From: an uncultured Bacilli bacterium | Lineage (GTDB): Bacteria > Bacillota_I > Bacilli_A > RF39 > UBA660 | Assembly (NCBI GenBank): GCA_947632065.1 | Contig: CANRNO010000006.1 | Span: forward strand, 1 to 53,599 | Length of the DNA stretch: 53,599 bases | Direction of reading: 5' to 3' | In this document: positions 36,962 through 48,724 of the stretch, piece after piece | How the letters are laid out: each line of letters begins with the position of its first letter | How positions within the stretch are numbered: position 1 is the first letter of the stretch | The notes under the pieces: generated by a model | What the model saw: only the letters and a program-made list of their open reading frames with translations | Databases searched by the model: none | Told to the model about the DNA's origin: nothing | Program-made: the position numbers and the translations under genes

Positions 36962-37196
36962 GTTGTTTAAAAGCGATGAAGTCGAGGAGTATATAATAGT
37001 TTATTTAAAGAGAGTATAGGTGTGGTGTGACTATATATTAAACATTATAGAAGGTAGCGATGGAGTTTTATTTCTGAGTTTAGTAAGAAATAACGTAAAT
37101 GATGCGTTAAATCAAAGAGATTACAAATAATTTGTAAATTAAGGTGGTACCGCGGTTTTTTCGTCCTTAGATGAAAGACTGCGTTTTTATTTTTAG
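36962..37196 (+). promoter_or_regulatory. T-box riboswitch controlling the HD hydrolase-valS operon
   Basis: The leader starts with AAGCGATGAAG, contains the distal stem I AGAGAG and GGTGTGGTGTG elements, and carries the diagnostic T-box AAGGTGGTACCGCG at 37141-37154, which pairs with the uncharged tRNA acceptor end. A GTA triplet at 37054-37056 in the likely specifier loop is a valine codon, consistent with valS downstream, but the loop boundaries were set by eye. Uncharged tRNA-Val would favour antitermination. Confidence 0.93.
37151..37196 (+). terminator. Regulated terminator of the T-box
   Basis: CGC and GTCCTT on the left pair with AAGAC and GCG on the right (imperfect), followed by TTTTTATTTTT. 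It overlaps the T-box sequence, so antiterminator and terminator exclude each other. The ribosome site GGAGG follows directly. Confidence 0.75.
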
Positions 37197-46915: not shown

Positions 46916-47632
46916 ATGCAAAGAGTTCAAAAAGTTATTGCGGCAAGTGGTATTTGTTCTAGAAGACATGCTGAGGAGTTAATAAAAAGTAGAAGAGTAA
47001 GTGTTAATGATAAAGTAGTAGAGGAGTTAGGTTTTAAAGTATCTGATAAAGATATAGTAAAAGTAGATGGTATACCTTTAAAAAAAGAAGAGAAAGTATA
47101 TTATTTACTTAATAAACCTAGAGGAGTTATTACTAGTAGTAAAGATGAGAAGAATAGACGTACTGTTGTGGATTTAATTGATGATGATAGAAGAATTTAT
47201 CCAGTTGGTAGACTTGATTATGATACAATAGGAGTTTTACTTTTAACTAATGATGGAGAGTTTGCGAATATTTTAATGCATCCTAGTGATGATGTGGAAA
47301 AAGTTTATGTTGCAAAAGTTAAAGGAATGATTTTAAAGGATAAATTAAATAGTTTAAGAAATGGTGTTTTAATTGATGGAGTAATGACTAAAAAAGCAAA
47401 TGTTAAAGTTATGAGATATGATAAGAAAACTAATATTTCAATGGTTAGAATAACTATTCATGAAGGTCGTTATCATCAAGTTAAGAGAATGTTTGAATCT
47501 GTTGGATGCGATGTTTTAAAATTAAAAAGAGAAAAAGAGTTTATATTTGATCTTGTTGGATTAAAATCTGGAGAATATAGAAAATTAACTCCTAAAGAAG
47601 TAGCGATTGTTTATTCTTTGAAGAAAAAATAA
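46916..47632 (+). CDS. rluB: RluB/RsuA-family rRNA pseudouridine synthase
   Basis: A 238-residue enzyme. An S4 domain (MQRVQKVIAASGICSRRHAEELI) precedes the catalytic domain with YYLLNKPRGVITSS, the nucleophile in GRLDYDTIGVLLLTNDGEF and EGRYHQVKRMFESVG. RluB makes pseudouridine in 23S rRNA helix 89; distinguishing RluB from RsuA/RluE needs alignment, but the S4-plus-long layout favours RluB. ATG 46916 follows CGGTGATTGTGT; the TTG at 46910 is an in-frame alternative. Confidence 0.9.
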   Translation: MQRVQKVIAASGICSRRHAEELIKSRRVSVNDKVVEELGFKVSDKDIVKVDGIPLKKEEKVYYLLNKPRGVITSSKDEKNRRTVVDLIDDDRRIYPVGRLDYDTIGVLLLTNDGEFANILMHPSDDVEKVYVAKVKGMILKDKLNSLRNGVLIDGVMTKKANVKVMRYDKKTNISMVRITIHEGRYHQVKRMFESVGCDVLKLKREKEFIFDLVGLKSGEYRKLTPKEVAIVYSLKKK

Positions 47633-47698
47633 AAATATAACTAAAATTATCTTTTTTGAGTATAATATTAATGCATGTAATATGCTTGTAAAAATTGG

Positions 47699-47863
47699 TT
47701 TAATATTGATTTGATATTAATTCGATATTGATTCGATATAGGTTTGATATTGATTTGATATAGGTTTGATATTGATTTGATATAGGTTTGATATTGATTT
47801 GATATAGGTTTGATATTGATTTGATATAGGTTTGATATTGATTCGATATAGGTTTGATATTGA
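47699..47863 (+). repeat. Fifteen tandem 11-bp units upstream of the toxin-antitoxin promoter
   Basis: Units of TTTGATATTGA and TTTGATATAGG alternate, giving a 22-bp higher-order repeat, with a few T-to-C, G-to-A or end variants at the edges (first TTTAATATTGA, then TTTGATATTAA). All fifteen units keep phase exactly. The last unit runs into CT to make TTGACT, the -35 of the antitoxin promoter. The array is non-coding and strongly AT-rich. A binding array, curved DNA or spare promoter copies are possible roles. Confidence 0.93.
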
Positions 47864-47888
47864 CTATTAACTAAATTTATAGTATATT
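47860..47888 (+). promoter_or_regulatory. Promoter of the antitoxin RNA
   Basis: TTGACT (47860-47865), a 17-bp spacer and TATATT (47883-47888) predict a transcript starting about 47895, just before the first antitoxin repeat. Confidence 0.72.
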
Positions 47889-47901
47889 ATTAGTGCATTA
47901 G

Positions 47902-48006
47902 AAAATGTTCTCGCTCCCGGATGGTGCGAGTAATAAATTATTCCGGTCGACAATGTTTCTCGCTCCCGGATGGTGCGAGTAATAAATTATTCCGGACGAA
48001 AATGTT
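47902..48006 (+). ncRNA. Type III antitoxin RNA: two 49-nt pseudoknot repeats plus a partial third
   Basis: Two units (47902-47950 and 47951-47999) share a 37-nt identical core and are followed by a partial AAATGTT. In each, CTCGC (47910-47914) pairs with GCGAG (47926-47930), while CCGGA (47917-47921) inside that loop pairs with TCCGG (47942-47946) beyond it: an H-type pseudoknot, as in ToxI antitoxins. Unit borders contain A-rich AAAATG/CAATG, like ToxN-family cut sites. The GC-rich cores stand out against the AT-rich surroundings. A terminator and the toxin gene follow. Confidence 0.88.
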
Positions 48007-48010
48007 ATGA

Positions 48011-48041
48011 AGACTCTATTTATTGATAGAGTTTTCTTTTT
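48011..48041 (+). terminator. Terminator between antitoxin repeats and toxin gene
   Basis: ACTCTAT (48013-48019) pairs with ATAGAGT (48026-48032) around TTATTG, followed by TTTCTTTTT. In type III systems such a leaky terminator sets the ratio of antitoxin RNA to toxin mRNA. Confidence 0.88.
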
Positions 48042-48074
48042 GTATATGATATACTATTAATGGGAGTTGGTTCT

Positions 48075-48557
48075 ATGAAAGTTAAAACAGGATATATTTA
48101 TCATATTAAAGATGAATTTTTTGATATAGTTAATGATGAAAAATTAATGACTAATCATGAACGTGGGAAAAAACGTCCTACATATTTTACTATTAAAGAT
48201 AAAGATATTTTATGGTTTATTCCACTTAGTAGTAAAGTTGAAAAATATAAAAAAATTATTGATCAAAAAAATAAAAAATATGGTCGCTGTGATACCATAC
48301 TTATTAGAGAGATTTTAGGTAAAGACTCTGTTATTTTATTACAAAATGCTTTTCCTACTTTAGAAAAGTATATAGATCATGTACATTTACTTAATAATGG
48401 AAAACCTGCTAAAGTTGTTGAATCGCTAAAAAATGAAATATTAAAAAATTTTAAATATTTATTAAAATTAAAAAATAATGGTGTTGATTTGTTTTTTACT
48501 GATATTGATAAAATAAAAAAACAAATGCTTGAGGAAATTACAGCTTTAAATAAGTAA
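48075..48557 (+). CDS. Type III toxin, ToxN/AbiQ-like endoribonuclease
   Basis: A 160-residue protein. KTGYIYHIKDEFFDIV, then LMTNHERGKKRPTYFTI and ILWFIPLSSKVEKYKKI match the ToxN/AbiQ pattern (N-terminal contact strand, KRP, and the PLSS segment that holds the catalytic region). The C-terminal half is Lys-rich and helical. It cuts A-rich RNA and is held inactive by the repeat RNA upstream. ATG 48075 has GGGAG before it; 48060 lies in that site. Family membership (Tox, Cpt or Tenp) is undecided. Confidence 0.87.
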   Translation: MKVKTGYIYHIKDEFFDIVNDEKLMTNHERGKKRPTYFTIKDKDILWFIPLSSKVEKYKKIIDQKNKKYGRCDTILIREILGKDSVILLQNAFPTLEKYIDHVHLLNNGKPAKVVESLKNEILKNFKYLLKLKNNGVDLFFTDIDKIKKQMLEEITALNK

Positions 48558-48562
48558 TTATT

Positions 48563-48592
48563 ATTCTATCTAAAATGGATAGAATTTTTTTG
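48563..48592 (+). terminator. Terminator of the toxin gene
   Basis: ATTCTATC (48563-48570) pairs with GATAGAAT (48578-48585), followed by a T-run. Confidence 0.88.
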
Positions 48593-48609
48593 TTTAGTAA
48601 AAATATGTA

Positions 48610-48639
48610 TAGAATATAAAATGTCAATTCTATTTTTTT
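48610..48639 (+). terminator. Second terminator-like hairpin after the toxin gene
   Basis: TAGAAT (48610-48615) pairs with ATTCTA (48627-48632) and runs into seven T's. It echoes the stem of the preceding terminator, so it may be a decayed copy. The rest of the gap to 48725 holds a TATAAT box (about 48698-48703). Confidence 0.55.
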
Positions 48640-48724
48640 GTTATGTAAAATATAAGTAAAATAATGTAAAACTCATTGCTTATGTAAAGTTTGTTTTGAT
48701 ATAATTGGTATGAGGTGTATACTC

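Follow-up and report, generated by a model that had tools for sequence, protein, structure and literature searches.

How a tandem array of fifteen 11-bp units came to stand just ahead of an antitoxin promoter, and whether the number of units affects that promoter, are the questions raised by one toxin-antitoxin locus in the genome of an uncultured Bacilli bacterium. We analysed the whole stretch of 53,599 nucleotides that carries it (contig CANRNO010000006.1, assembly GCA_947632065.1), hereafter the window, and compared the locus with related CptI promoters and with 386 genomes of the family.

Structure of the array

The array and its two terminal units lie as follows:

47699..47863, + strand: tandem array, 15 x 11 bp (7.5 x 22 bp TTTGATATTGATTTGATATAGG), by unit tiling and TRF
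47699..47709, + strand: unit 1, TTTAATATTGA, the same sequence as the first unit of the sister-species pair
47853..47863, + strand: unit 15, TTTGATATTGA, the same sequence as the second unit of that pair, ending in the TTGA of the -35

The 15 units fill 47699-47863 exactly, contiguously and with no indels, so the coordinates, the unit count and the lack of a phase slip given by an earlier sequence-only reading are correct. TRF reported a 22-bp unit in 7.6 copies with 92% matches and 0% indels, and its score of 285 is the highest in the window. Self-identity reaches 94% at lag 22 and 80% at lag 11, against 26-34% at lags 9, 10, 12 and 13. In first-order Markov stretches (n=2000, ~2680 bases each), the best 154-base segment held at most 81 lag-11 matches; the array has about 123 (0.80 x 154).

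The alternation of two unit types proposed by the sequence-only reading holds strictly from about unit 3 onward and is imperfect in units 1-3 (TTTAATATTGA, TTTGATATTAA and TTCGATATTGA). Units 4 and 14 share the sequence TTCGATATAGG, both carrying a C. The positions TT.RATAT vary little from unit to unit. Units are heterogeneous at the edges and homogeneous in mid-array, as is usual in arrays that grow from within. They differ by substitutions, which suggests an array of some age, not a brand new one. The same reading took 11 bp as about one helical turn, placing every unit on the same side of the DNA; at 10.5 bp per turn, slightly less than the unit, the drift is ~17 degrees per unit and ~240 degrees over the array. 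Successive units therefore turn away from any single face, and by this arithmetic they would share one only if the local helical repeat were near 11.

We rejected the array as coding sequence, since a unit of 11 bp does not divide by 3 and brings in-frame stops, and as RNA structure (folding no better than shuffles, z -0.6).

The CptIN locus and its promoter

Downstream of the array, we annotated the following features:

47860..47865, + strand: -35 of the CptI promoter (P1), TTGACT, by sequence and a layout common to most other CptI loci examined
47883..47888, + strand: -10 of P1, TATATT, after a 17-bp spacer, on the same basis
47901..48006, + strand: CptI antitoxin RNA repeats, 2.2 x 49 bp, by TRF, with pseudoknot-like segments CTCGC/GCGAG and CCGGA/TCCGG read from the sequence
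48009..48036, + strand: predicted intrinsic terminator between antitoxin and toxin
48075..48557, + strand: cptN, type III toxin (endoribonuclease family), 160 aa, by NCBIfam NF047359 and PDB 4rmo

The toxin matches NCBIfam NF047359 (E 2.1e-47, 160.7 bits for a cut-off of 90) and PDB 4rmo (CptN; E 1.2e-16), and was recognised neither by Pfam nor by PADLOC. With a CptN homologue preceded by tandem antitoxin repeats and then a terminator, the locus is, as judged from its sequence, a type III CptIN toxin-antitoxin system. These matches and the position of the promoter bear out the earlier placement of the array directly upstream of a type III antitoxin promoter, and TTGACT at 47860-47865 likewise agrees with the claim that the last unit supplies the TTGA of the -35.

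The neighbours of the locus are genes for an RNA pseudouridine synthase and a hydrolase. In a third congener (G001) the same two genes (rluB-like and hydrolase) are adjacent, with no toxin-antitoxin genes between them. When its sequence (L097) was aligned with the window, the flanks stopped at 47643 and restarted at 48641, a gap (47644-48640) that would outline an inserted cassette of about 1 kb. Elsewhere in the window, an ordinary T-box leader lies at 36967-37171 (Rfam RF00230).

Comparison with the sister species

The closest relative, sister species G002 (L014/L094), carries the same locus in the same place with 2 units, against 15 here. Over 299 aligned intergenic bases the two differ by 3 substitutions and a single indel of exactly 143 bp, or 13 units, and the two units of the sister equal units 1 and 15 of the window array. 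The cptN genes show 2 synonymous and 0 nonsynonymous differences, and the neighbouring gene 15 synonymous and 6 nonsynonymous codon differences. Divergence between window 47565-48565 and L094 is ~0.5-1% over this 1-kb toxin-antitoxin tract and mostly 2-13% in the flanks, which points to a recent common origin of the tract, perhaps through transfer or recombination, or to strong constraint. Since substitutions nearby are few, the array changed its length while very few of them accumulated.

The sequence-only reading had proposed comparing copy number among related genomes, and this comparison gave a strong difference; its phrase of an expandable set of -35-like sequences fits as a structural description. 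The array has the marks of a promoter VNTR or minisatellite: head-to-tail tandem units of about 7 bp or more, an adjoining promoter whose -35 the last unit overlaps, and a whole-unit difference in copy number (15 against 2, between two species and not between strains).

Distribution of the array

No comparable array was found at any of 73 other CptI promoters, and among the 386 family genomes a tandem occurrence was found only in the array's own genome (G000), the others yielding single imperfect matches at a level like that of a reversed-pattern control. We found no second tandem site in that genome, and no other array with units <25 bp, >5 copies and >90% match in the 314 kb of it (about a third) that were scanned. 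Viral contigs and plasmids gave no match to the array. Phage matches were confined to 35 bases at the query's 3' end, where the promoter region and the last bases of the array lie; with E ~0.2, they were treated as chance. Absence from close relatives that carry the locus, which the sequence-only reading had named as evidence against its view, is thus largely what we observed: the nearest relative has two units and the others none. This near-absence argues against a conserved function, not against a lineage-specific effect.

Longer repeats occur in the same genome: contig C11 holds ~12.8 copies of a 282-bp unit with 78% matches (L120:11739-15342), and two separate tandem repeat pairs of ~317-320 bp lie at L108:16165-16779 and L119:16563-17203.

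A two-hairpin element at CptI promoters

Many related CptI promoters carry a conserved, strongly covarying two-hairpin element, in which hairpin 1 comes just after an upstream TATAAT and hairpin 2 holds the -35 in its loop and has its 3' arm beside the -10. Examples are L065:233-307, L078:2719-2794 and L121:1216-1290, and a decayed copy lies at window 47661-47888, with these parts:

47661..47666, + strand: upstream -10-like TATAAT, near-invariant in structured-leader relatives
47673..47685, + strand: GCATGTAATATGC, remnant of the conserved hairpin 1, by family structure and sequence
47692..47698, + strand: unique sequence before the array, probably the start of the decayed hairpin-2 5' arm, continuing into unit 1
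47865..47878, + strand: TATTAACTAAATTT, probably the decayed hairpin-2 3' arm, inside the P1 spacer

In a covariance model of 26 distinct sequences, 92% of cells pair, against 33-56% in slid controls; the 92% leans upward, as the hairpin alignment was fitted to the model. Two-sided changes occurred in 55 cells, against 20.5 in shuffles. In hairpin 2, G-T cells outnumber A-C cells on the + strand (24 against 5), which hints at a + strand RNA, though the sequences are related and the count is no clean test. When the model was searched against the family, it matched 26 of 386 genomes, and most strong matches adjoin cptN; L132 and L133 score well with no toxin match in the stretch examined. Rfam gave no match, either for the locus or for the leader of five relatives. 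The element is possibly a leader RNA transcribed from an upstream promoter, and the TATAAT may have such promoter activity, although no consistent -35 for it was found. Folding is no better than shuffles in L014 (z -0.69) and only slightly better in the window (z -1.8), and the array thus sits where the hairpin-2 loop, lost in this lineage, once was.

Origin of the array

We measured the distance from the upstream TATAAT to the P1 -35, which is 44-48 bp in most structured-leader relatives (exceptions: L029, 36 bp; L055, 40 bp; L018, 32 bp; L137, 62 bp) and 56 bp in L014; in the window, from 47661 to 47860, it is 199 bp. L014 thus has about one extra unit over the relatives and the window 13 more. 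At the -35 the relatives carry TATTGACT, which the unit end ATATTGA resembles over a short stretch of about 7-8 bp. This likeness is consistent with an array grown from sequence already at the promoter, whose own -35-proximal segment would have been duplicated in place.

We consider it probable that the array is a hypervariable promoter minisatellite, grown in place by slippage, near-neutral and dispensable for toxin-antitoxin function; slippage as the process, birth in place and near-neutrality are the parts that we infer. The segment ending in the CptI -35 hexamer would have been duplicated in tandem, at the start as single 11-bp units and later mostly as 22-bp dimers, and each duplication would recreate TTGA beside an unchanged CT, 17 bp and TATATT. 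With TTGA regenerated each time, the core promoter would stay intact while everything upstream is pushed away, and slippage or recombination between repeats would then change the copy number fast. Such an array would be tolerated because the core promoter is insulated and the hairpin normally at this spot had already decayed in the lineage. Both the core promoter and the toxin are intact beside the array. Contraction in the sister from a longer ancestral array fits as well as expansion here, since the two units of L014 equal units 1 and 15.

Alternative explanations

An effect of the array on transcription is possible, and we weighed a contingency dial, in which unit number alters CptI transcription and gives subpopulations that differ in antitoxin-to-toxin balance, as the main rival, though a rather unlikely account. 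It could act through the contacts that RNA polymerase makes upstream of the -35, through spacing from the upstream element, or through weak extra promoters, one in each 22-bp dimer. Copy number does differ between relatives, promoter tandem repeats with such effects are described for nadA (PMC2791445) and M. tuberculosis (PMC12817950), and five of the dimers pass as weak promoter-like sites on the + strand (TTGATA-18-GATATT, score 9/12). However, the initial T is missing from the -10-like GATATT, and the core promoter has not changed; the count of promoter-like sites (11 against 4.8 expected in shuffles) is not independent evidence because five of them copy one sequence. That unit number sets CptI transcription, with slippage alone yielding cells of different antitoxin-to-toxin ratios, we regard as improbable. 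Were the dial real, cells would differ in phage-defence or dormancy thresholds. A multi-site operator, with a regulator on each unit and cooperative control, is very unlikely: the regular 11-bp period is near the helical turn and TT.RATAT varies little among units, but recent duplication alone predicts such low variation, and the own genome offers no second tandem site that a regulator could share. The phased binding array suggested by the sequence-only reading shows no conservation, being found at 0 of 73 other CptI promoters and in none of the other family genomes, so that sites at orthologous promoters, as a conserved operator would have, were not found.

The same reading had suggested a curved upstream element and a computation of curvature, which we ran with two wedge models. 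Curved DNA aiding RNA polymerase fits the AT-richness and the period near 11, and the ratio of end-to-end to contour length (0.77-0.83) falls within the more bent 7-9% of window segments; yet permuted tandem units were often equally or more bent (23-57% of controls), phased A6 controls were far more bent (0.33-0.67), and runs of four or more A or T are missing from the array. The predicted value lies within the range of other window segments and permuted tandem units, not well above controls, and we give this explanation the least credence of all. Nor do we put much weight on an assembly artefact, in which the assembler produced the array, or its length, in error and which we hold to be highly improbable: the assembly is fragmented and incomplete (31 contigs) and the array is about one short read long, but the substitutions differ from unit to unit in a definite order, and identical seed units stand at the corresponding place in the sister species. 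An assembly error would touch the copy number, which a short-read assembly could misstate, and not the existence of the array.

Relation to known systems

In the open-access literature we found no upstream array at a type III toxin-antitoxin promoter, in line with the sequence-only reading, which knew of no such system. At nadA of Neisseria meningitidis the repeat unit is 4 bp, which rotates elements round the helix, and a repressor is known; unlike it, the 11-bp unit here nearly keeps rotational phase. As here, the nadA repeats lie upstream of the promoter, and their number alters the spacing between a distal element and the core promoter (PMC2791445). Promoter tandem repeats of variable number are known in other bacteria (PMC2791445, PMC12817950). 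Those of M. tuberculosis (dop, lpdA, cysG) are likewise tandem promoter-proximal copies, with a number that varies among strains and, at dop, a longer unit of 57 bp; variation there was measured within isogenic populations, whereas here two sister-species genomes were compared (PMC12817950). Type III systems have a single promoter ahead of the antitoxin repeats, according to a review (PMC5086642). The CptIN systems of the literature share with this locus the antitoxin RNA repeats, terminator, toxin, single promoter and CptN homologue, and the sections consulted do not mention an upstream array, the repeats described being those of the antitoxin RNA and separate from the array here (PMC4627078, PMC5086642). 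Variable-number promoter tandem repeats are a known source of rapid expression change, and the sister loci form a natural pair (2 against 15 units, near-identical otherwise) in which the effect of unit number on antitoxin dose is directly testable.

Other CptI loci

The comparison of relatives also revealed the structured element at CptI promoters, which is testable in its own right. Among relatives that lack the structured leader, a dyad, TATACTAT ... ATAGTATA, often surrounds this promoter. It spans the -35 to the -10 (TATACTAT-TTGACA-...-ATAGTATA; e.g. L038, L045, L080, L085), includes a compensatory pair in L073 (TATACTAC/GTAGTATA), and might serve as an operator or a divergent promoter or form a cruciform. 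The viral-classed contig L121 (IMGVR_UViG_3300011008_002676) carries a CptIN locus (toxin 80% identical) with the two-hairpin element; CptIN systems may thus travel on phages. In L063, L064, L066-L068 and L070, two sets of CptI promoter and repeats lie ~500 bp apart at a single locus, which suggests tandem CptIN systems.
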